This document shows, piece after piece, positions 8,013 through 33,236 of a DNA stretch of 46,464 nucleotides. Location of the stretch: positions 1 through 46,464 of the forward strand of contig QVQE01000054.1 of NCBI GenBank assembly GCA_003584865.1, given 5' to 3'. How positions within the stretch are numbered: the first letter of the stretch is position 1; every line of letters begins with the position of its first letter. The position numbers and the translations under genes are program-made. A model generated the notes under the pieces. That model saw only the letters and a list, made by a program, of their open reading frames with translations, searched no databases and was not told the DNA's origin. Source of the stretch: Methylococcales bacterium (GTDB lineage Bacteria > Pseudomonadota > Gammaproteobacteria > Methylococcales > Methylomonadaceae).

Positions 8013-9668
8013 ATGATTAAATTATGGTTTAAAAGCGGATCGCCCTGGATATGGCTTAATGCAGCCGCAGTAAGTGTCTGTATGCTGATGGTTGTGGGTG
8101 TATTGGGTTTGGTTATTGTCCGAGGGGTCGGTCACTTTTGGCCGTCTCAAGTTGTCCAGTTTAGTTATCAGGAAGAAGGCAAGCAACCGCAGACCATTAT
8201 CGGCGAAAAAGTTGATTCAAGTGTCATGCCCGCTTTAATGGCTAAGTCAGCCGGTCATAAAATGACCGATAATGAAGAGACTTTAATTCAGTATTTGATT
8301 AAAGTTGGGAACCGTGACGTTACAGGCACTGATTTTCGTTGGATAGAAGAGCGCAATATAAAAGAACGCAGCGAGCCCCTTGAGTTGATGGTGATTGAGC
8401 GTAGAGAATGGGGCAATTTCTACGGTCGTTTGCTTGAAGTTAAAGAAGCCGGCAATACGCTTGCGACGGGGGCTGACGCTTGGTCGGTGCTACAAGTCAA
8501 GTTAGCCGAAGTACTGGTTGTCTATAAGCAAATAGCTCATTTAGAGAAAAAGGAAATTGGAGCCATTAATTATGGTCTTGAGCGTTTAAGGCTTAAACAA
8601 AAGAGATTACAGTTAGATAAGCAATGGGATGAAGCGGCTAAGCAACAAATAGCCTCAGAAACGGCTGCTTATGATGTTAAGTACAAAGAATATCAGGCAC
8701 AGCTAGCCACCTTATATCAACAAATAAGACGTTGTACGTTGGTGGCTGAGACAGAAAGCGGTACGCAGATAAAAATACCCTTAAATAAAGTAGTTAGAGC
8801 TTTTCAGCCTAATGCCATGTCAGTGCTGGATAAAATAGTTCATTACGGGGTTAAAGTCGTCGAGTTTTTAACGGAAGACCCACGTGAAGCCAATACAGAA
8901 GGCGGTATTTTTCCGGCTATCTTTGGTACCATTATGATGGTTATGATGATGTCGGTGATAGTGACCCCTTTTGGTGTTATTGCCGCTGTGTATTTACGTG
9001 AGTATGCTAAGCAGGGCTTTGTGACGCGGTTAATTAGAATCGCGGTTAATAATCTTGCCGGTGTACCCTCGGTGGTTTACGGGGTGTTTGGTTTAGGGTT
9101 TTTTGTCTATATTTTAGGCGGTAATATTGACCAACTGTTTTTCCCTGAATCTTTACCGGCACCGGTTTTTGGTACGCCTGGTTTGTTGTGGGCTTCAATT
9201 ACCTTGGCGTTATTAACATTGCCGGTTGTGATTGTGTCTACTGAAGAAGGCTTAGCGCGTATCCCTAGCTCGATCAGAGAAGGCAGTCTAGCCTTAGGAG
9301 CTACCAAGCTTGAAACCTTATGGTTAACTGTCTTGCCTATGGCGAGTCCCGCTATGATGACCGGGTTAATTCTTGCAGTAGCGAGAGCAGCAGGGGAGGT
9401 GGCTCCGTTAATGTTGGTGGGTGTTGTCAAGTTAGCACCTACATTACCACTCGATGGAAACTTTCCATTTTTGCATTTAGATAGAAAGTTTATGCATTTG
9501 GGTTTTCATATTTATGATGTTGGCTTTCAAAGTCCCAATGTAGAGGCGGCGAGGCCATTAGTTTATGCGACGGCATTATTATTGGTATTAGTGATTATAG
9601 GTCTAAATCTAGCTGCAATCATCATAAGAAATAATTTGCGAGAAAAATATCGGGCACTGGAAGGTTAA
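8013..9668 (+). CDS. pstA: Phosphate ABC transporter permease PstA
   Basis: 551 aa; NLAGVPSVVYGVFGLGFFV, SLALGATKLETLWLTVLPMASPAMMTG, AAGEVAPLMLVG. Confidence 0.93.
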   Translation: MIKLWFKSGSPWIWLNAAAVSVCMLMVVGVLGLVIVRGVGHFWPSQVVQFSYQEEGKQPQTIIGEKVDSSVMPALMAKSAGHKMTDNEETLIQYLIKVGNRDVTGTDFRWIEERNIKERSEPLELMVIERREWGNFYGRLLEVKEAGNTLATGADAWSVLQVKLAEVLVVYKQIAHLEKKEIGAINYGLERLRLKQKRLQLDKQWDEAAKQQIASETAAYDVKYKEYQAQLATLYQQIRRCTLVAETESGTQIKIPLNKVVRAFQPNAMSVLDKIVHYGVKVVEFLTEDPREANTEGGIFPAIFGTIMMVMMMSVIVTPFGVIAAVYLREYAKQGFVTRLIRIAVNNLAGVPSVVYGVFGLGFFVYILGGNIDQLFFPESLPAPVFGTPGLLWASITLALLTLPVVIVSTEEGLARIPSSIREGSLALGATKLETLWLTVLPMASPAMMTGLILAVARAAGEVAPLMLVGVVKLAPTLPLDGNFPFLHLDRKFMHLGFHIYDVGFQSPNVEAARPLVYATALLLVLVIIGLNLAAIIIRNNLREKYRALEG

Positions 9669-14691: not shown

Positions 14692-16029
14692 TTACAAAAT
14701 ATAACGACTCAAGTCTTCGTCATCGGCAAACTCAGTTAAGTGTTGATCAACATAAGCGGCATCAATAATAAGGCTTTGATCTTTAAGATCGGGGGCATTA
14801 TAAGAGATGTCTTCAAGCAACCGCTCCAGCATAGTGTGTAGTCGTCTTGCGCCTATATTTTCGGTGCGTTCATTAACCTGCCAGCCGAGTTCGGCAATAC
14901 GTTGAATACCGTCTTTAGCAAACGATAAAGAAACACCTTCTGTGGCAAGTAGGGCAGTGTATTGTTCGGTTAAAGATGCATTGGGTTCAGTTAAAATGCG
15001 CACGAAATCGTCTGCTGTCAAGGCACTAAGCTCAACTCTAATGGGAAAGCGACCTTGTAACTCAGGAATCAAGTCTGAAGGTTTTGCAACATGGAACGCC
15101 CCTGAAGCAATGAATAAAATATGATCTGTTTTAATAGCGCCATATTTTGTACTGACTGTACTGCCTTCGACTAACGGTAATAAATCTCGCTGTACCCCTT
15201 CGCGAGAGACTTCACCGCCACCCCCGCCGAGTTCAGAGCGTTTACATATTTTGTCTATTTCATCAAGAAAGACAATGCCATTTTGTTCTACAGATTCAAC
15301 GGCGCGAAAGCGAATATCATCTTCATTGACCAGCTTAGCGGCTTCTTCTTCCTGTATCGCTTTTAAAGCTTTTTTAATGGGCATCTTACGTGACTTGGTT
15401 TTTCCAGAACTTAAGTTTTGAAACATACCTTGCAACTGGCTAGTCATTTCTTCCATGCCAGGAGGCGCCATAATTTCTACGCCCATTGATGCAACATGTA
15501 CATCAATTTCAATTTCTTTGGTATCAAGATCACCTTCACGTAATTTTTTACGCATTTTTTGTCGGGTTGATTCTTCGGTTTCGGAGAGCATTCCCCCTTC
15601 TGCACGGGGTAATAGCATATCCAAAACTTTTTCTTCTGCTGCTTCGTAAGCTTTGTTTTCAACTTTTTCCATTTCTGCTGTCCGGGTCATTTTGACAGCC
15701 GTATCGACCAGGTCTCGGATAATGGATTCAACATCTCGACCCACATATCCGACTTCGGTAAATTTTGTTGCTTCAATTTTAATAAAAGGGGCATTTGCCA
15801 AGCGTGCGAGACGGCGGGCAATTTCAGTTTTACCAACACCGGTTGGGCCAATCATTAAAATATTTTTAGGGGTGATTTCATCACGTAAGGAAGAATCAAC
15901 CTGTTGACGGCGCCAACGATTTCTTAAGGCGATTGCAACCGAGCGTTTAGCACTGGCTTGACCAACAATATGTTTATCAAGTTCACTTACAATTTCTTTA
16001 GGGGTCATCTGTGTCATGCGGTTACTCAT
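14692..16029 (-). CDS. hslU: HslUV protease ATPase subunit HslU
   Basis: [43 protein letters not shown]. Confidence 0.98.
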
Positions 16030-16567
16030 TGGGTTCTGCGTCTAATTCTTCAATGCGGAGATTATGATTGGTATAGATACAAATATCTGCCGCTATATTT
16101 AATGACCTTTCTACAATCTCGCGGGCACTGAGGTCGGTATTTTCTAATAATGCCCGTGCAGCCGCTTGAGCAAAAGCACCACCCGAACCTATTGCCATTA
16201 AGTCATATTCTGGCTCAATGACATCACCCGTTCCAGAGATAATGAGAGACGTTTTAGCATCTGCGATGGTTAGCAAGGCTTCTAGCTTACGCAAGGCGCG
16301 GTCTGTGCGCCAATCTTTAGCCATTTCTACAGCCGCACGTGTTAAGTTACCACGATGCTTTTCGAGCTTACTTTCAAAATGCTCAAATAAAGTAAAAGCA
16401 TCAGCGGTTGCGCCAGCAAATCCAGCAATCACTTTATCATGATACAGGCGGCGCACTTTACGTGCATTGCCTTTCATGACGGTATTGCCAAGAGTGACTT
16501 GGCCGTCACCACCAATGACTACTTTATTGCCTCGGCGCACAGAAAGTATGGTTGTTCCTCTAAACAC
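16022..16567 (-). CDS. hslV: HslUV protease peptidase subunit HslV
   Basis: [41 protein letters not shown] start; overlaps hslU by 8 bp. Confidence 0.98.
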
Positions 16568-17896: not shown

Positions 17897-20800
17897 TTAA
17901 TTACCTGTTTTAGGCGGCTCATTTAATGGGCTAATAGCAGGGGCATCTGGGTATCTGTAATATCGGGTTTTACTGTCATTGTTGTCTTTAGGTGTGGTCT
18001 TCTCCTCGACTATTGTTTTGGTCGTTTTAGGTGCTAGTGTTGGCGAAATCTGTTTAACTTCATTAGCCGGTAGCTTTTTGAATGCAGGCGTTATGTCTAC
18101 AATAGCAGGCTTGTTAACTGGGGGCTGAGTTGGCTTAACAATTGGCTTTTTAGGTAAAGGCTGAGGCACTTTAACAACGGGCTTATCAAGAGTAGGCTCT
18201 GCCACTTTAAGGGCTGTTTTATCAACCGAAGGCTGAGCTGGTTTAACAGTTGGTTTTATCGGTAAAGACGGAGGGGCTTTAACAACTGACTTATCAGGCG
18301 TAGGTTCTACTGCTTTAACGACGGTTTTATTAACCGAAGGCTGAGCTGGTTTAATAGTTGGTTTTATCGGTAAAGTCGGGGGGACTTTAACAACTGACTT
18401 ATCAGGCGTAGGTTCTGCTACTTTAACGACGGATTTATTAACCGAAGGCTGAGCTGGTTTAACAACCGCGTTTATCGGTGAAGGTTGAGGTGCTTTAACA
18501 ATCGGTTTATCAAGAGCAGGCTGTGTCACTTTAACGACGGTCTTATCAATCGAAGGCTGGATTGGTTTTGCTGTTGGTTTTTTAGATAAAGGGGCAGCGA
18601 TTTTAGCCTGAGGCTTCTCAACCGTAACCGATGGGGCAAGAGTATCAACCGTTGCAGGCTCAATAACAGGCTTAATCGTGTCCGTAGATATTACCCGTGT
18701 CGTCGGTGAAACGGGGCTATTGTTTGTCACCGTGTTATTAATCAATGGTGATAATATTGGCTTTAGATATTTGACTATTTGTACCGGTAATGCGCTGGTA
18801 AAATGATAGAGTCCTGAATTATCTCCTTCAACATAGGCTGTGATAACGCCAAAAAAACGATCCCCAACAAAGAAAGTAAAAGTAGCAGCACGACTGATAA
18901 ACTTCGAATCAAGCAATACGCCGCCAGCTCCCCATATTTGTTTGCGATGATCACCGGTACCGGTTTTTCCTCCGACCGCAAGTAAGTTATTATTCGCATC
19001 CGTATAACTGCCATTAAGACGAGATGCAGTTCCGCCTGTCACAACACCTATTAGGGCGCCACGGGACACTTTTGCAATTTCCGGAGCAAAGATACGCTCA
19101 CCTTCATCGGGCGCTTTGTTCAAGAGTGTTTCATAAGGTGTTCCTACTGCGTAATGAAAGCTTTGGAACCTTACCACGGGTAACTTTACCCCATCATTAA
19201 CTACAATACCCATCAGTTCGGCCAGTGCCGCAGGTCTATCACCAGAAGCACCTATAGATGTTGCATACGAGGGTGTTAATTCTTCAAAGGGATAGCCTAC
19301 CCGTTTCCAGGCTGCATGAATTTCATTAAAAGCTTCTTCTTCCAAAAGCGTCATGATTCTTTGTTGTTGAGCATTGGCTCGGTGATTATTAAATAACCAG
19401 CGGTAAACGTTTTGCCGAGATTCGGTACTCGCTTCAATGACCTCTTTTTTTGTTGCGTGAGGATGTTGAGCCAGGTACCCGACTAACCATAACTCTAAGG
19501 GATGAATCTTGGTAATATAACCTTGATCCTGTAAATCAAATTTCTTTACTGAATATCTATCGTATAAGTCATAAATATCTTCCTTGGCTAAGGTGGCTTT
19601 ATCTAACTGCTTATTAAGAAAAGCATTGAGCGCCATTTCGTCATTATTGGGATAAATAGCCCGATACAACATAGTCAGACGTGAAGCGGTTGGAAATACT
19701 CTTTTAACGAGCATGTCCATGGCTTCTTCTGGCGACTTACCTTCATAACGGGAGAAGAACCTTTGTAAATAAACCTGGCCTTCGTTATTTGCAAAACGTT
19801 CTAGATATTCTTTACGTTTGGGGCTATCTGGCGTATCAAGCCAGCTTGCGATACCCTCTGGTTTATAGAGATGATGATAAACAATTTCACGCATCAAACG
19901 AATAAAAACCAGATTGACGGAATCCCGTAATGCATCCCGCACTGACATGACTTTATAATCTTCATTCTTAGTAAAATTATTGAAGTGATGAAGCCCCCCC
20001 CCTGTAAAGAAGTATTCACCCGGGCTAGCTGAAAAGCGTTTATCAAGCGCAAGATTAAGGAAAGATTCTAAATCAATTTTGGGTGATAGTTTTAACTGCT
20101 CGATTACCCACGCCGATATATAATCCCGAGGATGTAAGGTGACCTGGTTTAGAGCGGATGTTGAAAAGTTTTTATATTGCCGATAAGTATCGGTTACCAA
20201 TTCAAGATAATGCACCATCGTGCGGAACTTGGATGTTGACCCCAAATCGATTCGAATACCTTCATTAATATCCAGTGGTTGATCATAGTTATCGGTTTGT
20301 ATGCGTAACAAATTGCCCGATTTGTCCTTTTCAAACAGCATTAAGCTATAAACAATGGGTTTAAGATCTGTGTTTTGATTGAGCATTCTAAATCCAAGGA
20401 TGCCGGCTGCACGTGCTTCAATGGGTTCACTGAGTTGTTTCAGGGCGTGATTAACGGCTTGTTGGGTTGTATAGTCCAACGTGCTTTTAACCGTTAAATC
20501 GAGTCGATCCAGATCATAGTTAGATTTAACGCCTAAGGTAGTCGCCAGACGGGCACGTAACACATTCTGGGTCTTTTTTTCTGTAAAGAATTGAGGTTCT
20601 GCGGGTTCTATTTTAGAAGGGCGATCACTGTGAATCTGTAATGCCGCATCTCTAAGTGCTGTTGAAATAACACCCTGCTCCGTCATTATCCGTAGATAGC
20701 GGTCAGTAAGGGTCTGTAAAGCATCAAAGCCACGACCTAATAAATACGAGGGACGTCTTTGAGATAATAAAATGTTCAACACCTGTCGATAGGCTTTGGC

Positions 20801-21778: not shown

Positions 21779-23562
<1,784 letters not shown>

Positions 23563-23854
23563 CTATTTTCAGTATTCAAGAAAACCAGAGCTAGCATGAT
23601 ACCTTAAATTTACATAGTCGAGTAGATTGGCTGTTCAGATTGGGGCAGAATTTACAGTCCTATAATGCGTTGAATGGCTGCTGACGTTAACCCTGCTTGC
23701 CATTGAGGGCTATTTCAGAGACAATAACCTACTCGTTATATGTCTTCATTTGTGTGTTTTTGGCGTTAATGCACGACGCAAAGTTTCGGCAGCGAGTTCT
23801 TGTTTTTGTCCCGCCCTAAGTGGGTGTTTATATTGTTATAATAGTGGTGGTAAC

Positions 23855-24619
23855 ATGAAAAAAATACTGATTAATTTAACCTTGGTTGGTTCTTTAGCTT
23901 TTGGTTCTAATATGGCATTTGCGAATTGCGCTGCTTTACCGAACTATAATGCCCTCGTTTCCGCATTATCTACAGCACGTCATCAAGAAAATGGTGGCTT
24001 TAGTTTAGATATGTGGGGTACGATTGTTGACAGAGATGGTATCGTTTGTGCCGTTGCTTTTACGGGGGTAGATCGTGGTGACCAATGGCCAGGTAGCAGA
24101 GTAATTTCAGCCCAGAAAGCAAATACTGCTAATGCGTTTAGTCTCCCAGGGCTTGCTTTATCAACAGCGAATCTTTACAGTGCTGTACAACCAGGAGGTA
24201 GTTTATTTGGTTTACAAGCAAGCAACCCGGTTGACACTGCTGCCGCTTATAGAGGGCCATCGGTTAATTATGGCAAAACTTTTGATCCTTTAGTAGGTAA
24301 TAAAATAGGGGGGGTTAATGTGTTTGGCGGTGGCTTGGCACTATATGATCATACGGGTAAATTATTGGGTGCTATTGGGGTGAGTGGTGACTCTTCTTGT
24401 GCGGATCATAATATTGCCTGGAGAACGCGTAATGCACTTAACCTGGATTATGTGCCAGCTGGAGTTGCAAAGGGATTTGCTGGAGATACCACGCATCCCG
24501 ATAATATCGTTTTTGATATAACCACCAATACATCTGGAGTCAGTTCAAGTGCAAGCGGATGGGGGCATCCTTCATGCTACAATACATATTCTGTTAGTCA
24601 GTTACCCGCAACGAAATAA
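23855..24619 (+). CDS. Secreted GlcG/HbpS-like heme-binding family protein
   Basis: Signal peptide from MKKILINLTLVGSLAFGSNMAFA; GGLALYDHTGKLLGAIGVSGDSSCADH typical of GlcG/HbpS; start corrected from the ORF track. Confidence 0.75.
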   Translation: MKKILINLTLVGSLAFGSNMAFANCAALPNYNALVSALSTARHQENGGFSLDMWGTIVDRDGIVCAVAFTGVDRGDQWPGSRVISAQKANTANAFSLPGLALSTANLYSAVQPGGSLFGLQASNPVDTAAAYRGPSVNYGKTFDPLVGNKIGGVNVFGGGLALYDHTGKLLGAIGVSGDSSCADHNIAWRTRNALNLDYVPAGVAKGFAGDTTHPDNIVFDITTNTSGVSSSASGWGHPSCYNTYSVSQLPATK

Positions 24620-24699
24620 GTTAATCTGGTTGTGAAGCCGTTGGATTTAAATCAGCGGCTTTTTAATTTTCTTTGTGGTTTGCTTGGGTAATTAAGGGT

Positions 24700-24906
24700 A
24701 TGAAATTAACGCTTCAAATCGCTTTAGGCGTATTTTTGGGTACGCTATCATCACAATTAATTATTGATACTTGGCGCTCCAATCAAACAAATATCGCTAA
24801 ACAAAAAGAAGAGCGGGTTCGGGCGGAACAAGAAAAAGTCCGACAAGAGCAGGGGGAGCGTATTCGAGCTTTGTTACTACAAAACAATAAGCACCTTAGT
24901 CAATAG
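24700..24906 (+). CDS. Small membrane-anchored protein with charged coiled-coil tail
   Basis: One N-terminal hydrophobic segment then KQKEERVRAEQEKVRQEQGERIRALL; ATG at 24700. Confidence 0.55.
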   Translation: MKLTLQIALGVFLGTLSSQLIIDTWRSNQTNIAKQKEERVRAEQEKVRQEQGERIRALLLQNNKHLSQ

Positions 24907-24983
24907 CTTATTGACTGGATGATTCGATCAGGCAGATTTTGTTGCTGTTAACAGGGCATTAACGGAATTACGATAATGTTTTT

Positions 24984-25014
24984 AAAAAGGGTGGCGATTC
25001 AATGCCATCCTTTT
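24984..25014 (-). terminator. Terminator of the amyloid gene cluster
   Basis: On the - strand AAAAGGATGGC...GCCACCCTTTTT, 11 bp past the last stop. Confidence 0.75.
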
Positions 25015-25025
25015 AGGCTGTCTAC

Positions 25026-26180
25026 TTATTGTTGGGTTATCGTTATAGTATTGCTATAACCACTCTGGATTATGTTGGCAATATCTGTGTGACCGCTATC
25101 ACTGTTGGTATTTTGATTGATAGTGGCACTATTAGTGTCGCCGGATTGACTGACAGTGGCACTGTTGTTCTCAGAGCCGCCCTGGTTAACATTTACATAA
25201 CTATTCGTTGCAGCAGATTGATCAACATTTGCAGTGTTGTTATCACCTGTTTGATTAATAATTTGTATATTCTGATTATTCCAGATGTTATCATTAATGG
25301 TGATCGTATTGCCTGAGCCGGATTGGGTGATTTGCGGGCTGGTGTTGTCAGTTTGCTGAATAGTAACAGAGTTGGAATCACCTACTTGTAAGATGCCGGC
25401 CTGAGCATTACTGGCTGTTTGGGAAATACTGGCGCTATTATAGTTACCCTGTTGATTAATAGTCGCTCTGCTGTTGGAGCCTTCCTGGCTAATAGAGGCT
25501 TTATTGCTTGAGCCATATTGCGTAATAGACGCTGTATTACCCGAGCCGATGTCCTGAGTAATCAGAGCCGTGTTATATCCCCACAAACCACCTGTGTTAT
25601 CTTGAGAAATACTGGCGCTATTGGCACTGTTCAAAGCTGTTTGATTTATCGAAGCACTGTTAAGATTACCCCATTGCGAGATGTCTGCGCTATCGCCATT
25701 GCCATAAAATTGATTAATACCAGCGCCATTAGAATAACCCGTTTGAGCAATTGTTAACCAGTTTGTTCCAAGCTGATAACCTTGAAAAACACCAGTAGAA
25801 TTGCTTATACCTTGTTGATCTATGATGGCGACGGAAATATAGTGATCACTGCCGTAGCTATTATGGTTGTCTTGATGGACGCCCACGGAGTTGCTATCAC
25901 CTACCTGAGAAATATTAGCGACTCCCGATCCGTTGCCGTAAGAATACCCCTCAGCAGATTGGGATACGGATACAGCGTTAGTATTGCCACTTTGTTTGGT
26001 TGAGCTTTGGTTGTTATCATTCGATTGAGTGATAGAAATAGAGTTGCCATCTCCACCCTCTTGTGAAGCAGTAATCGTATTGTAATTGCCTGCTGCATCA
26101 GCGGTAACTGTATTGTCTGCCATACCTACTGGGGTACATAACACCGTGCTAATGGCGAGTACTAACGGCTTAATTTTCAT
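25026..26180 (-). CDS. Curli-like amyloid subunit (large CsgA-type paralog)
   Basis: Signal peptide MKIKPLVLAISTVLCTPVGMA; many ~11-aa GxxNxAxIxQ repeats; start corrected to ATG at 26180. Confidence 0.87.
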   Translation of the reverse strand: MKIKPLVLAISTVLCTPVGMADNTVTADAAGNYNTITASQEGGDGNSISITQSNDNNQSSTKQSGNTNAVSVSQSAEGYSYGNGSGVANISQVGDSNSVGVHQDNHNSYGSDHYISVAIIDQQGISNSTGVFQGYQLGTNWLTIAQTGYSNGAGINQFYGNGDSADISQWGNLNSASINQTALNSANSASISQDNTGGLWGYNTALITQDIGSGNTASITQYGSSNKASISQEGSNSRATINQQGNYNSASISQTASNAQAGILQVGDSNSVTIQQTDNTSPQITQSGSGNTITINDNIWNNQNIQIINQTGDNNTANVDQSAATNSYVNVNQGGSENNSATVSQSGDTNSATINQNTNSDSGHTDIANIIQSGYSNTITITQQ

Positions 26181-26254
26181 TAGGGTTACCCTTATATTGT
26201 TAATGAAATAGGGCGGCATGCTGAACGGCTGCACTCAAAATTAAAATCCCTCCG

Positions 26255-26659
26255 TTAGGGCTTACCCGTTTCGGTGATAACTACTTTTTTTCCATTACCT
26301 ACTTCTATAACTGTGCGGTTATTACCATCGCCTTCCTGATGATGTATCACCTGATTGTTCTGACCATCTTGTAAGGCGATAGCCGTATTATGTTGTCCAT
26401 TTTGGCCTTGTAGGCTGATATTATTGTTACCGGATTGTGCTACCAGGCTTCTATTAGTCGCTCCGCTTTGTGATTGTACCAGGGTATTGTTATGCCCCGT
26501 TTGTTGTACAATAACGTCCCCCATTGAACCTTTTTGAGTAACGTGTGCTTTATTATTGCCTGAACCTGTTTGAGTAATTGAAATCACATTGGCAGCATTG
26601 CTGGTCATAATAGAACCTATAAGTAAAGTAACAAAAACAAAGTGGTTAGTTGATTTCAT
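26255..26659 (-). CDS. Small curli-like repeat protein (CsgA/CsgB family)
   Basis: 134 aa; ISITQTGSGNNKAHVTQKGS...; ends GNGKKVVITETGKP. Confidence 0.75.
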   Translation of the reverse strand: MKSTNHFVFVTLLIGSIMTSNAANVISITQTGSGNNKAHVTQKGSMGDVIVQQTGHNNTLVQSQSGATNRSLVAQSGNNNISLQGQNGQHNTAIALQDGQNNQVIHHQEGDGNNRTVIEVGNGKKVVITETGKP

Positions 26660-26671
26660 AATAATTGGTTC

Positions 26672-27454
26672 TTAAGGTTGGATCACGGTAATCGAAACGC
26701 CACCTGATTCTGTGATATTAATAGATTGACCATTCCCCATCTGTACAATATTAGCGATGTTATTATTGCCATATTGGGTGATCCCTGCATAATTGTTCGT
26801 ACCGTTTTGGGTCAAATTAGCTTGATTGCCATTGCCGTTTTGTTCAATCTGGGCTTGGTTATAACCCTGTGACTGGAGAACACTGATCATGTTCGCTTCG
26901 CCGGTTTGTGATAACTTAGCATAGTTACCGATGTCTGATTGAGCTACTTGTACTGAATTAAGGACGCCTGACTGCATGATATCTAGTGTGTTAAAGCTGC
27001 CTGTTTGTGAGGCACTGACATAATTACCCGTACCGGCGGAACTATTGATTAAATTATCCTGGCTAATGGTAATGGTGTTATTGTCGCTGGTTTGTGTGAT
27101 GTAAGCCAGATTATCGGTACTCGCTTGAACCAATGTGGCTTGATTGTAGTTGCCGATCTGATCAATAGATGAATAGTCATTGTTGGCCTCTTGAGTTACA
27201 CCAATGTTATTATTGAGTCCAGTTTGCGACAATTGCGAAAAACTACCGACACTGCTCAATTCTATTGTGAATCCCATTTGCTCAATTGAACTTTGATTTC
27301 CAGCACCGGATTGAAAGACCAAGGCCGTCTGTTGATCACCCTCCTGATCGATATAAGCCAGATTATCAGCGCCAGCAGTATTGACCAAACATAAAAACAC
27401 ACTGCCTGCTAAACGCAATCGATACCCGGGATGATTAAACTCATTTCGTTTCAT
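26672..27454 (-). CDS. Curli-like repeat protein, CsgB-type nucleator candidate
   Basis: 260 aa; QNGTNNYAGITQYGNNNIANIVQMGNGQSINITESGG; directly downstream of csgG. Confidence 0.75.
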   Translation of the reverse strand: MKRNEFNHPGYRLRLAGSVFLCLVNTAGADNLAYIDQEGDQQTALVFQSGAGNQSSIEQMGFTIELSSVGSFSQLSQTGLNNNIGVTQEANNDYSSIDQIGNYNQATLVQASTDNLAYITQTSDNNTITISQDNLINSSAGTGNYVSASQTGSFNTLDIMQSGVLNSVQVAQSDIGNYAKLSQTGEANMISVLQSQGYNQAQIEQNGNGNQANLTQNGTNNYAGITQYGNNNIANIVQMGNGQSINITESGGVSITVIQP

Positions 27455-27506
27455 GTGGTTAGCCTTTATTAGAGTTTATCTCTTCGTGCCGTATTCAATA
27501 TTCCAA

Positions 27507-28415
27507 TCATTGGGTGACGGTATGTGCCTCAGTATCAAATACAGGCGGTGTATAAGGGACATTATCCGTTGATTTTTCCTGTTTATAATTAGCTACGATA
27601 GCTTCAGCTTGTTGAGGATCTTTAAACTGCCACAGGCCTTGTAAGACTCCATCAATAATTGTAGTATGTACTGCTTTTTCAATCGCTTCCAATACCGCCA
27701 GTTGCGCGGGTTCGTTACTGGTAAAGCCGGTTTCAACTTCCAGTAAATCTTTTAACGCCACAAACTTGAATACGCTTAAATCTACTTTGATTGAGAAAAT
27801 AGTTTTAGTCGTATCAACGGATTGTAAGATCTGCCCATTTTGTACAGAGACCGTTCTTAAGTAAATACTGACCGAATCACGTTGAAACTCGGTATCGCCA
27901 CCGACTCCCAAATACTTTGCACCAAAGCCACCGGTGAGTGAGTTGCTTTGATAAGAAATAACCCCGCCTTCCAGGATGAGCGGTGAATATAATAAGGGTG
28001 GTAAGCTAGGGGCAGGTTTATCGCCACTGTATTGTTGACGAGTCTGTTGAATGATTTTTCGTTCGTTTAATAAATTAGCAATCGATTCCCGTTCTAATAC
28101 CGTAAACCACTGACCATTACCAGCTTCTTTTAAGGCTTTGATCAACATGGCCGTGGCGCCTTGAGTAACGGCGGTTGAATAGGTAATGCCGGTGTTTTCT
28201 TTGTATTGACCCGTTTGATCTTTAAATTTATAGATCGTCAACACAATTTTTTCTTTAGGTGGTGGCAAACTGCGCAAATCTTGCGTCACTTGCGTGACAT
28301 AACCTAAAGAGGCTTTTGAAGACGGTATGGGTTGAATTTTGCTGCTACAGGCCGTCATTAAGAATATTGATAACAGTAATAAGCGGTAAATTGTTTTTAT
28401 ACAATAAGCGTTCAT
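27507..28415 (-). CDS. csgG: Curli secretion outer-membrane lipoprotein CsgG
   Basis: Lipobox LMTACSS; VTQDLRSLPPPKEKIVLTIYKFKDQTGQYK; FTVLERESIANLLNERKII. Confidence 0.96.
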   Translation of the reverse strand: MNAYCIKTIYRLLLLSIFLMTACSSKIQPIPSSKASLGYVTQVTQDLRSLPPPKEKIVLTIYKFKDQTGQYKENTGITYSTAVTQGATAMLIKALKEAGNGQWFTVLERESIANLLNERKIIQQTRQQYSGDKPAPSLPPLLYSPLILEGGVISYQSNSLTGGFGAKYLGVGGDTEFQRDSVSIYLRTVSVQNGQILQSVDTTKTIFSIKVDLSVFKFVALKDLLEVETGFTSNEPAQLAVLEAIEKAVHTTIIDGVLQGLWQFKDPQQAEAIVANYKQEKSTDNVPYTPPVFDTEAHTVTQ

Positions 28416-28807
28416 GGCGTAGTAGTCATAGAGTTTAAATCCAGGGTGACAAGTACTACGTCGGTCGTCTTGTTAATGATACTGACAGTATTATTGGTAG
28501 CATCAGTTACCACCGTATAATCACTCGCAGCATTAGTTACAATATTCTGTGACAGTGTGCTCAGCATTTGGTTAATGATGTTGGCCTGAAGTATTTGCTG
28601 GGGTGTTTTAGCGGCAGGGGGGACATAGCCCGTTGACCCACTCACTGTAAAGCTGTTTTGTGCGTTGGCGTTGGCTAAGAGTGGCGTGCCATTCAGTGGG
28701 TTGCCACCAAAATCGGGGTTAACAAAGCCATGAGTTAACTCACCCGCAAAACTTTGCGAGCCACACAGTATACACAGACTGAATATCAAATTTTTATACA
28801 TGGTCAT
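28412..28807 (-). CDS. csgF: Curli assembly factor CsgF
   Basis: Signal peptide then ELTHGFVNPDFGGNPLNGTPLLANANAQNSF; 4-bp overlap with csgG. Confidence 0.95.
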   Translation of the reverse strand: MTMYKNLIFSLCILCGSQSFAGELTHGFVNPDFGGNPLNGTPLLANANAQNSFTVSGSTGYVPPAAKTPQQILQANIINQMLSTLSQNIVTNAASDYTVVTDATNNTVSIINKTTDVVLVTLDLNSMTTTP

Positions 28808-29190
28808 AATCCTTGTAGTTCTTTAGAAATTAAGGCTTCTTGTACAATCACTTCAATGACTCTAGCGACTGCCGCTGCGACTAATTCACTGATACGATCG
28901 GCTTGTGGCGTAAGAATGGATTCAAATAATACGGTATCATTCATGCTGACAATAATAACTTTGCGGTATAAATCATTGCGTTCACTAATAACGATATTTT
29001 CATTTGAGTTCAAAGAACCAAAGAGCTCATTAAATGAGTCATAAAACTCATGTCCGCCTTTGGTCAGGGTTTCATCAATCACCAGGCCGGTAATAATGAA
29101 ATTATTATCATCCTCTTTGGGTTCGTTTGAGAACACTAGAGTACTATAGCTTAATAGTAAGACAATAATGACTTTTCTTAGCAAATACAT
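28804..29190 (-). CDS. csgE: Curli secretion specificity factor CsgE
   Basis: Signal peptide; GLVIDETLTKGGHEFYDSFNELF, VSMNDTVLFESILTPQ; 4-bp overlap with csgF. Confidence 0.92.
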   Translation of the reverse strand: MYLLRKVIIVLLLSYSTLVFSNEPKEDDNNFIITGLVIDETLTKGGHEFYDSFNELFGSLNSNENIVISERNDLYRKVIIVSMNDTVLFESILTPQADRISELVAAAVARVIEVIVQEALISKELQGL

Positions 29191-29210
29191 AATAATGATT
29201 CGGTAAACCC

Positions 29211-29237
29211 TAAAAAAGGGCGGGGTACCACCCTTTC
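29211..29237 (-). terminator. Intercistronic terminator-like hairpin between the first csgA-like gene and csgE
   Basis: On the - strand AAAGGGTGGTACCCCGCCCTTTTTT. Confidence 0.65.
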
Positions 29238-29248
29238 AGTGAGTTAAC

Positions 29249-30130
29249 TTATTGTTGGGTTATTGTTGCAGTATTGTCATAACCTGATTGCCTTACATTA
29301 ACAATATCATTGATACTGTTACCGCCACTGACATCTTGATTGATAGTGGCTATGTTCTTAGAACCACTCTGATTGACAGTGACTACATCGTATTCATTAC
29401 CCCCTTGAACAACAATCACACTATTGTTATCGCCATCGTTTTGATTGATAGTAGCAGTATTATTACTATTGTATTGAGAAATATCGGCAGAATTGTTTCC
29501 GATGACCGATGTAGATGCTTGACTTAGGTTGATAGTGTTGTTATCTCCTGTTTGAGAAACTTTAGCGGTAGAGGCATTACTATAAGACTGGTCAATACTA
29601 GCGGTGTTGTAATTGCCTGATTGAGAGAGTGTGGCGAAGCCAGCGCCACTATAGCTTTGATTAATGGTAGCAATGCCATTATTACCGGTTTGGTTGATCG
29701 CTGCAGAATTTGTTTCATTCTGAAACGTTTGATTAATAGTAGCAGCAGAACTGGTGCTAGACGTTTGATTTATAGTTGCATCAGAATGAGTGTTAGAAAC
29801 AGCATCCGAGGCTTGGTGTATTGCTGCGCTATTGCCATTACTATTCCCTATTTGGGTGATAGTGGCGGTATCTCCACCATTGGAATATCCAACACCAAAA
29901 TAATAATCTTGATTTATGGTGGCCGAGTTTGTAGAGCCATTTTGGTCGACTTTAGCCGTGTTAGAATCTGTCGCCTGGGTTATATTGATAGCGTTTTTAT
30001 CCCCGGCCTGTTGTGTAGTAGTAATCGTATTGTAACTACCGGACGTATCGGTGGTAACGGTATTATCTGCCCAGACTGCGGTGGAGCATAACACTGCGCT
30101 GATGGTGAATACTAACGGTTTAATTTTCAT
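29249..30130 (-). CDS. csgA: Curli-like amyloid major subunit (CsgA-type)
   Basis: Signal peptide MKIKPLVFTISAVLCSTAVWA; repeats such as GNNGIATINQ, GDNNTINLSQ; first gene of the cluster. Confidence 0.87.
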   Translation of the reverse strand: MKIKPLVFTISAVLCSTAVWADNTVTTDTSGSYNTITTTQQAGDKNAINITQATDSNTAKVDQNGSTNSATINQDYYFGVGYSNGGDTATITQIGNSNGNSAAIHQASDAVSNTHSDATINQTSSTSSAATINQTFQNETNSAAINQTGNNGIATINQSYSGAGFATLSQSGNYNTASIDQSYSNASTAKVSQTGDNNTINLSQASTSVIGNNSADISQYNSNNTATINQNDGDNNSVIVVQGGNEYDVVTVNQSGSKNIATINQDVSGGNSINDIVNVRQSGYDNTATITQQ

Positions 30131-30191
30131 AGTTTGATCCTTTAGTTTGGTTGTGTTGACAGTTTATTACGTTTTTTAACAGTATAGGTGA

Positions 30192-30201
30192 GTCAATTGA
30201 C
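30192..30201. promoter_or_regulatory. Palindrome GTCAATTGAC next to a TATACT -10-like box upstream of the amyloid cluster
   Basis: Perfect 10-bp palindrome about 60 bp before the csgA-like start. Confidence 0.35.
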
Positions 30202-30965: not shown

Positions 30966-33236
30966 TTATAGGCCGTTATCAATAATTAAGGTCGTTGCCG
31001 TTGTTACACCGTTCAAGACATAACCTTTTGATACCTGTACGTTATATCCATTACGAATTGCCTTCGTTAAGCCAGTCCAGTTTCCTTTCCATGTAATGCT
31101 GGCACAAGCAGGTACTGTCACAACCGTTTTTCCGATGGTTACGGTAGTGCCCGATACCGCAGTGACTGCGCCTTGCACACCGGCATACGTTTTAGCACCC
31201 GCAGGTATTGTACATGAACCCGCTATACCCGCTATAACAGGTGCAGGATTTACTACAATTGAAAGCGTAGTAATGTTGTACTTGTTTTTTTGTGCGTCAG
31301 TCACTGAAATGGCAACAGGGAAGGTACCACTTACTGTAGGTGTTCCACTGATTGTAGTGCCATTGAAGGTGACACCTTTAGGCAATGTTCCCGTTACGGC
31401 AATCGTATAGGGAGACCAGCCACCCTTCGGTGCAATTATATAGGGACCAAACGCAGTGTTAATCTGCACACTGGTAAAGGCAGGAGCGGTTAATCTAAGT
31501 GGCAAACTGACACTCATGGTATTGGCTAAACAAAATTGATTAGCAGCATCCATCTGACCACTGTAGGTAACCAACTGCCCCGCCGCAAATGCGCCAAAGG
31601 TTAAGCCGGGGGCAAAGGTTGTATTGGCTTTAGGTGCATAATAGACACTGATGCCGCCTTGAGCCAAACCACCACTAATATCAAGCCAGAACTTATTGGC
31701 AAATGAAATGACTGAGTTTGTTCCACTGCAAGCAGCAGCAGGTGTAACTACGCTTAAATTTGAACTGGCAATAGGGCTTAATACTCCCACACTGTCTGTT
31801 GCGGTAAATGAAAGTGTGACGATACCCACAGCGGTTGGTTTGCCAGAGATTAAACCTGTGGTTGATAAGGTAAGACCCGCAGGCAATTTGCCACTGGTTA
31901 AGGCATAAGTAAATGGCGCATCACCACCTGAAGCCGCTAATGAATAATTATACATAGCACCCGCCGTCGCATTCGGTAAAGTCGCAGTAAACACGATGGC
32001 AGGATCAGTGACCTTCATCGGGGTTGTGGCTGTCACCGGTGATGCACCATTCGATACGTCAGTTGCTGTTACAAGTACATTGAAGGTTCCAATTTGAGTA
32101 GCCATGCCTGAAACAGTATTATTAGCAGGATTGAAACTTAAGCCGTGCGGTAATCCTGTCACCGTCACATTAACAGTATCACCCGCATGACCCGGTGTAA
32201 CCGATATTATTTGTTTGTAGGTAACACCAGCAACCGCATCCGGTAAGGAATTATTAATAGCAGGTGCAACAGGAATAACGGCAGCCGGTACAACACCATC
32301 AAGATTAACAGCTGCATTTTGGGCACCTTGATAATCACCTTTACTGACATTAGGATCTAAGTCAAGTGCTTCATGGGTTTGAGGATCAAAGCGGCCTTTG
32401 TACGAGTAAATTTCAAAACGATAAACAATTGACTTGGCACCTGGATCAGGTGCAACACCCGTTAAATCAACTTTTCCTGAACCATTAGGATTGCCTGAAT
32501 CATATTGCAATAACTGCCATTCTGTTTGCGTGTTTTGCCCCAATTTAATGGCCGCATTTTCAGCAACTAAATCTTCTACCGCAACATTGTAGCCATAACC
32601 GGTCGCGGTTACTTTGTACCATTTAGGCTCACCGAATTCCCATGCCTGTGGAACAGGCGCAATCTTAATAGCAGGTACTGGAATTTGAGGTGCAGCAGGT
32701 TGTGCTACTACAGCAGCCGGAACAGCCCAGGACGTGCTGGGAATATTCGACACCGAACTGACCAGTGTTGAAGAAGAAGGTGATGTTTCTAATAACCACT
32801 CATAATCAACTGAGGTTGCAACGACTGAGGTGGATACACCGAAATGATCGCAGGGATAAGTGGTCGTATTGTAGTTTTTATCACCCAAAGGCCAACAGCT
32901 ATCAGTAGGGGCTACTGCCAGTGTGCCACTTTGAGTGCCAATAGGCCAAGCGTTTTTAGTGGGGTCAAAAGTTGCCTGGTAAGTCACATCAACATAGGAC
33001 ATATCAGGTGCATCCGTTACCGTAGGTACGCCGTAACGTTCCATGGTCGGCCAGCGATTAGCAGCACCGAATAGGGATGTAATCTCAGAACTGTGTAAAC
33101 CATGTAGGCGAATATGAAATCCGTGAGCTGTTTTGCCCGTATCATTGATGACATCAAAATTTTCTACGGGGCCAAAGGTAGTTGCGTTTGCTGACATTGT
33201 CATCAGCATACTGACTGTTAAAAGAATTTTTTTCAT
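30966..33236 (-). CDS. Secreted multidomain protein with putative Ig-like (He_PIG) domains
   Basis: Signal peptide; cadherin/Ig-like repeats (LPDAVAGVTYKQIISVTPG..., LPNATAGAMYNYSLAASGGDAPFTYALTSGKLPAGLTLSTTGLISGKPT); unfamiliar ~250-aa N-terminal region. Confidence 0.8.
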   Translation of the reverse strand: MKKILLTVSMLMTMSANATTFGPVENFDVINDTGKTAHGFHIRLHGLHSSEITSLFGAANRWPTMERYGVPTVTDAPDMSYVDVTYQATFDPTKNAWPIGTQSGTLAVAPTDSCWPLGDKNYNTTTYPCDHFGVSTSVVATSVDYEWLLETSPSSSTLVSSVSNIPSTSWAVPAAVVAQPAAPQIPVPAIKIAPVPQAWEFGEPKWYKVTATGYGYNVAVEDLVAENAAIKLGQNTQTEWQLLQYDSGNPNGSGKVDLTGVAPDPGAKSIVYRFEIYSYKGRFDPQTHEALDLDPNVSKGDYQGAQNAAVNLDGVVPAAVIPVAPAINNSLPDAVAGVTYKQIISVTPGHAGDTVNVTVTGLPHGLSFNPANNTVSGMATQIGTFNVLVTATDVSNGASPVTATTPMKVTDPAIVFTATLPNATAGAMYNYSLAASGGDAPFTYALTSGKLPAGLTLSTTGLISGKPTAVGIVTLSFTATDSVGVLSPIASSNLSVVTPAAACSGTNSVISFANKFWLDISGGLAQGGISVYYAPKANTTFAPGLTFGAFAAGQLVTYSGQMDAANQFCLANTMSVSLPLRLTAPAFTSVQINTAFGPYIIAPKGGWSPYTIAVTGTLPKGVTFNGTTISGTPTVSGTFPVAISVTDAQKNKYNITTLSIVVNPAPVIAGIAGSCTIPAGAKTYAGVQGAVTAVSGTTVTIGKTVVTVPACASITWKGNWTGLTKAIRNGYNVQVSKGYVLNGVTTATTLIIDNGL

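Follow-up and report, generated by a model that had tools for sequence, protein, structure and literature searches.

A contig of 46,464 nucleotides (nt) from a Methylococcales bacterium (QVQE01000054.1, assembly GCA_003584865.1), analysed over its whole length and referred to here as the window, carries seven open reading frames (ORFs) on the minus strand between positions 30130 and 25026, in the order csgA1-csgE-csgF-csgG-260 aa-134 aa-csgA2 (aa, amino acids). These genes very probably represent an ordinary curli (type VIII secretion) locus of Methylococcales with an expanded, dispersed CsgA family, including a third gene (csgA3) on another contig, and with two CsgB-like subunits. Curli are protein fibres with which many bacteria form biofilms. 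The gene content, order and strand had been proposed in an earlier note on this DNA, and were confirmed by the ORFs and their Pfam matches. The genome to which this 46-kb contig belongs, that of an uncultured bacterium, measures 2.5 Mb and is 75% complete.

Gene content and subunit classes of the locus

All seven genes of the locus (7/7), the repeat proteins as well as CsgE/F/G, exceeded the Pfam curated cut-offs in hmmscan. On the minus strand, csgA1 (29249..30130) encodes a 293-aa curlin-repeat protein (PF07012, 2.4e-18, 6 stretches) with ~12 repeats of 22-23 aa and the Sec-type leader MKIKPLVFTISAVLCSTAVWA. It is followed by csgE (28804..29190; 128 aa; PF10627, 3.2e-17) for the adaptor/gating protein of the curli secretion channel, csgF (28412..28807; 131 aa; PF10614, 2.1e-14) for a channel accessory protein, and csgG (27507..28415; 302 aa; PF03783, 6e-54) for the outer-membrane lipoprotein channel, which has the lipobox LMTAC and scores 183 bits with PF03783 against a cut-off of 20.8, and 216 bits with the NCBIfam CsgG model. 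On the same strand lie the genes of csgB-like subunit 1 (26672..27454; 260 aa; PF07012, 6.1e-23, 8 stretches; ~10 repeats) and csgB-like subunit 2 (26255..26659; 134 aa; PF07012, 7.2e-10; five 22-aa repeats), and finally csgA2 (25026..26180; PF07012, 6e-33, 9 stretches; ~16 repeats). Read from an upstream GTG, csgA2 encodes 402 aa, and from the ATG at 26180 (MKIKPLVL...) 384 aa; the ATG is most likely the start, and the leader read from it is nearly identical to that of csgA1. With lengths of 293, 260, 134 and 384 aa, the several subunits of different size that had been noticed earlier are indeed present. Their Q-x-G-x-x-N repeats span 22-23 aa, QxGxxN occurs 7-13 times in each of the four repeat proteins, and Sec-type leaders, read from the translations, are found on every subunit.

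Could these be other secreted Gln/Asn-rich repeat proteins that lie near csgEFG by chance? We consider this scarcely credible. The subunits of the window genome are up to three times longer than E. coli CsgA and CsgB, which would fit such an origin, but 4/4 exceed the Curlin_rpt cut-off. Furthermore, of the five genomes of the genus (5/35) in which the curlin-repeat family was found, four also have csgE, and the association recurs in other genera.

The gene spacing would fit a single transcription unit: csgF shares 4 nt with csgE and 4 nt with csgG, 12 nt separate the 260-aa gene from the 134-aa gene, and the remaining intergenic gaps measure 52-74 nt. A partial stop is possible after csgA1, where a hairpin with a T-run (29215..29232, minus strand; -20.5 kcal/mol for a 67-nt stretch) precedes csgE and may act as a partial terminator. 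A second hairpin with a T-run after csgA2 (24985..25020, minus strand; -15.0 kcal/mol for an 80-nt stretch) is the likely terminator of the locus. Neither was listed by the consensus terminator scan, though both fold, and Rfam gave no match between positions 20000 and 34000.

The repeat proteins differ in a doubled motif, QxGxxN-x5-QxGxxN, which is present three times in the 260-aa protein and five times in the 134-aa protein, and is missing from csgA1, csgA2 and csgA3; E. coli CsgA has none and E. coli CsgB has two. Two minimal repeats are common in CsgB and not in CsgA (PMC3521004). The 134-aa protein has five repeats, as does E. coli CsgB, the fifth being charged and degenerate, and the last repeat of the 260-aa protein is likewise degenerate and aligns to the last residues of the CsgB model. 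NCBIfam scores were 103.5 bits for CsgB and 65.8 for CsgA with the 260-aa protein, and 42.1 and 25.7 bits with the 134-aa protein, neither of which reached the equivalog cut-offs; these models were dropped as a class test, as nearly all curlin proteins score higher with the CsgB model.

Based on sequence comparison, csgA1, csgA2 and csgA3 form one paralogue family. Together with the csgA of G012 (Methylococcaceae metagenome-assembled genome (MAG) VK_bin-0278, another species of the same genus; loci L024, L020 and L056), they are mutual best matches in the compared set, with 142-201 bits among themselves and at most ~105 bits for any other compared protein. The three genes of the window genome are alike at their 5' and 3' ends (70-79% nt identity), and, within the compared set, E. 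coli CsgA is matched best by G012 csgA, csgA2 and csgA3. Four unrelated subunit types are thereby ruled out. The earlier description of four different subunits holds for the number of genes; it does not hold for the number of types, since csgA1 and csgA2 are paralogues alike in leader and C-terminus, which leaves two classes. The most plausible reading of this genome's subunits is that two are CsgB-like and three CsgA-like, and the 260- and 134-aa proteins would be the minor or nucleator subunits.

Unlinked csgA copies and comparison with the sister species

The window view of the earlier note left out csgA3 and a csgA remnant. The csgA3 gene is intact (455 aa), lies on contig G000:C1 (L009:6803-8170; G000 is the window genome) and is unlinked to the locus; it contains a tandem array (132 nt, 3.5 copies), and the csg genes of the window have none. 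The csgA remnant, with an in-frame stop, was found ~1 kb beyond it on the same contig. Between the two there is a GNAT/TacA-type toxin-antitoxin pair (L009:8354-9141 and 9215-9320), beside a glycyl-tRNA synthetase gene. Exactly one csgE was found in the genome and no second one; therefore, csgA3 is presumably secreted via the window locus, and all subunits presumably share one machine. A second CsgG-domain protein (G000:C79, 224-aa frame, beside two small lipoprotein-like genes) was rejected as a second curli locus because it is accompanied by no second csgE.

In G012, the csgE-F-G-260-134 core is kept: its nt sequence is 96% identical to that of the window in csgE/F and 99.6% identical across most of csgG and the 260- and 134-aa genes; the pieces of csgG and the 260- and 134-aa proteins show zero amino-acid changes. 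Both csgA1 and csgA2 are missing beside this core. A segment of 2.56 kb (23695..26253), containing csgA2 and a gene for an HbpS-like protein, is absent in G012 between the 134-aa gene and hemF, and the single G012 csgA is located at another site, between PpiC-like and alpha/beta-hydrolase-like genes (described by eye). What stands out slightly is that csgA copies come and go between sister species around a stable core.

Between the window and G012, the synonymous divergence (dS) is low, at 0.015-0.03, in the tract that runs from csgG to the DUF2797 gene (21779-28415), and reaches 0.14 for csgE, 0.22 for the penicillin-binding protein gene and 0.37 for mobA. Judged from these values, the csgG-DUF2797 tract was probably exchanged recently by recombination. 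Such an exchange means that the identity of the 260- and 134-aa proteins is no proof of strong selection, and that the csgA2 segment, too, was likely gained or lost recently.

These data bear on whether the subunits are functionally distinct, forming their own fibres or zones of a composite fibre with separately tuned expression. We regard this as possible, if doubtful. Two clearly different classes are kept side by side, the 260- and 134-aa proteins are the same in two species whose csgA genes vary, csgA1 comes with a leader region of its own and is separated from csgE by a hairpin, and extra copies have been proposed to modulate the fibre (PMC3521004). However, csgA1, csgA2 and csgA3 are alike in ends and repeat grammar, the presence or absence of csgA between sister species suggests redundancy, and the 260- and 134-aa genes lie in the low-dS tract, where identity may reflect recent recombination and not selection. 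Graded fibre thickness, which the earlier note had suggested for subunits of different length, is unlikely because the lateral size of curli is set by the conserved repeat length (~23 residues) and not by the repeat number (PMC10192328).

In G012, two contig ends lie inside csgG, and both carry foreign sequence, meeting at a duplicated TA (window positions 28095-28096). This 136-nt foreign end (L024:1-136, L020:1-137) has 28 copies in the genome, mostly at contig ends. The csgG of G012 is thus probably interrupted by a multicopy insertion sequence, which, by the TA duplication, may be IS630/Tc1-mariner-like. Such an interruption would fit a decaying locus, with curli being lost in the genus and some subunit genes being relics, and so would the csgA remnant with its in-frame stop and the patchy distribution of the machinery, csgE being present in just 7/35 genomes of the genus and csgF in 17/311 of the order. 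Nevertheless, none of the seven csg genes in the window is broken or shortened, leader peptides are present, and the ratio of nonsynonymous to synonymous divergence (dN/dS) of csgE against G012 is ~0.14, so that we consider decay of the window locus quite improbable.

Candidate control elements and a proposed model of assembly

The absence of csgC and of an adjacent csgD, as stated in the earlier note, was borne out: csgC (PF10610) had no match in the window genome or in G012 even at E = 10, and none of the ORFs surrounding the locus is of LuxR type. The only notable match to the CsgD model in the genome reaches 31 bits against a cut-off of 250 and lies on another contig (G000:C2); it consists of a receiver and a LuxR-type helix-turn-helix domain, as in a generic response regulator, and has no link to the locus. 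As the genome is ~75% complete, a distant csgD is conceivable. Neither absence is an oddity, given that csgC is confined to Enterobacteriales and Aeromonadales and that csgD is missing from the vicinity of the locus in most Pseudomonas (PMC3521004).

A common leader of ~75 nt precedes csgA1, csgA3 and the csgA of G012. It includes GTCAATTGACTCA, which contains the perfect palindrome GTCAATTGAC and is located in the window at 30189..30201 (minus strand), ~60-70 nt upstream of the csgA1 start, as a candidate promoter/operator element. Exact copies of GTCAATTGACTCA in the two genomes were found only before these three genes, and csgA2, which lies downstream of the 134-aa gene, is without it. We hypothesize from this arrangement that GTCAATTGACTCA is an operator, and csgA1 and csgA3 may be switched on together via the common upstream element. 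A wider regulon, sought through one-mismatch copies of GTCAATTGACTCA, was rejected (5 copies vs 6 for a reversed-pattern control in the window genome, and 13 vs 7 in G012). The sigma-70 promoter scan was uninformative, with 23 sites vs 22.6 in shuffles.

It is conceivable, though in our view unlikely, that the csgA genes are dispersed cassettes, each with a conserved leader carrying GTCAATTGACTCA, a conserved 3' end and a fast-changing repeat interior, which would move to new sites while one core serves them all via a common non-CsgD regulator acting on GTCAATTGACTCA.

For an ordinary curli locus with an expanded CsgA family, a model of secretion, nucleation, co-assembly and regulation can be proposed by analogy. 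As in E. coli, the subunits would cross the inner membrane by Sec and stay unfolded in the periplasm, and CsgE would hand them to the CsgG-CsgF channel, through which they would leave the cell unfolded. In E. coli, nucleation by CsgB and polymerisation of CsgA follow. The 260- and 134-aa CsgB-like proteins may serve as minor, nucleating or anchoring subunits. The products of csgA1, csgA2 and the unlinked csgA3 would be bulk subunits that differ in length but can largely replace one another, and would stack as beta-solenoids into a single type of fibre whose width is constant. The number of subunits would have arisen from repeated csgA duplication, relocation and loss around the stable csgEFG-260-134 core.

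Several points weigh against this interpretation. The CsgB assignment is soft, as the NCBIfam CsgB model beats the CsgA model for all curlin proteins tested but one, and long CsgA-like proteins of relatives also contain doubled motifs. AlphaFold2, run without an alignment, did not produce a usable model for either CsgB-like protein, with a predicted local distance difference test (pLDDT) score of 42 for the 260-aa and 48 for the 134-aa protein. In addition, the upstream element rests on three related genes only, for which common ancestry could suffice, and the genome is only a 75% complete draft.

Related loci, CsgG phylogeny and surroundings

The locus is another instance of known multi-subunit curli, and is not unusual within the order. 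The E. coli curli system (csgBAC/csgDEFG; NC_000913) has the same csgE-F-G order, CsgA- and CsgB-type repeat subunits and Sec leaders, and its CsgG is ~40% identical to that of the window. In contrast, the window locus lacks csgC and csgD, has subunit genes before and after csgEFG, all on one strand, and belongs to a genome with two CsgB-like and two linked and one unlinked CsgA-like genes. Residues Y51, N55 and F56 of E. coli CsgG, which we take to be those of the constriction loop, align with N, T and Y in the window protein; position 56 is aromatic here and in most related CsgGs, and positions 51 and 55 vary across the branch.

Four curlin-repeat proteins are also encoded next to a single csgEFG set, all on one strand, in two genomes of the same order, G098 (L093) and G092 (L094); one of the four is of medium length, two are long and one is short (213/254, 533/483, 437/439 and 126/140 aa). 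These loci differ from the window locus in that all four subunits come before csgE, and their CsgG is ~50-55% identical and falls on another tree branch. Three curlin-repeat proteins with csgEFG were found in G291 (L101), G128 (L098) and G138 (L095), also of this order, again with all subunits before csgE. Across these three- and four-subunit loci of other genera there is one subunit of 213-264 aa, one or two of 241-533 aa and one of 122-140 aa. LuxR solos, with an autoinducer-binding domain, adjoin the operons of G291 (L101:3908-4789) and G138 (L095:11866-12639); no such regulator was found in the window genome.

Outside the order, Nitrospina sp. MAG HKST-UBA01 (L021) has two curlin-repeat frames followed by csgE-F-G, with a CsgG 58% identical to ours; it belongs to another phylum, and no subunit gene was seen after csgG. 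Alteromonas and Pseudoalteromonas have a single csgBAEFG operon with subunits and csgEFG on one strand and without csgC; there are two subunits and a divergent csgD there, compared with four subunits and no adjacent csgD here (PMC3521004). Surveys have counted as many as six csgA/B genes in a single genome (PMC3521004), and as many as 30 subunit gene copies per genome, with individual subunits of 4 to 62 repeats (PMC10192328). By the earlier note's own standard, a four-subunit layout already described for this lineage would refute its reading; such a layout is found in substance in G098 and G092, in genomes and not in a paper, and with a different gene order; the three-subunit loci and the surveys point the same way.

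No curli studies in methanotrophs were found in the literature searched, and the locus is a further record of multi-subunit curli from Methylococcales, which are presumably methane oxidisers. The window genome and its sister species form a natural pair in which short-term change in the number of amyloid subunits can be followed. As they lack csgC, these genomes lend themselves to asking how cells without it restrain amyloid in the periplasm, a question that is already known and is not specific to this locus.

In the CsgG tree, the window protein is placed with Methylococcales and one Nitrospina MAG, outside the branch of most congeners, and groups with Methylococcales CsgG proteins whose genes adjoin csgE/F. 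The csgEFG sets of the genus fall into at least three lineages, which differ in gene context. This points to either an old duplication with loss or to transfer, the tree having too few firm forks to choose. In G017 and G008, receiver-LuxR response regulators lie before csgE (L026:3694-4359 and L028:2696-3376, respectively), and a protein of 424-435 aa is encoded between csgE and csgF (L026:1661-2968 and L028:658-1932). The G017 protein had no Pfam family match. It is possible that this intervening protein is a divergent subunit of a third curli type in the genus.

The neighbours of the locus are ordinary housekeeping genes. One flank contains hemF, the DUF2797 gene and the penicillin-binding protein, hslUV-like and ubiE-like genes, and the other contains carAB-, greA-, FtsJ-, ftsH-, phosphomannomutase- and triosephosphate-isomerase-type genes. 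The HbpS-like haem-binding gene after csgA2, recognized by Pfam, is on the opposite strand. Directly upstream of csgA1, on the same strand, a 756-aa protein (30966-33236) has a leader and putative immunoglobulin-like (He_PIG) domains. Farther away, at 14692-16567, the window encodes a pair of an HslV-like proteasome subunit and an HslU-like ATPase (Pfam Proteasome and AAA_2).

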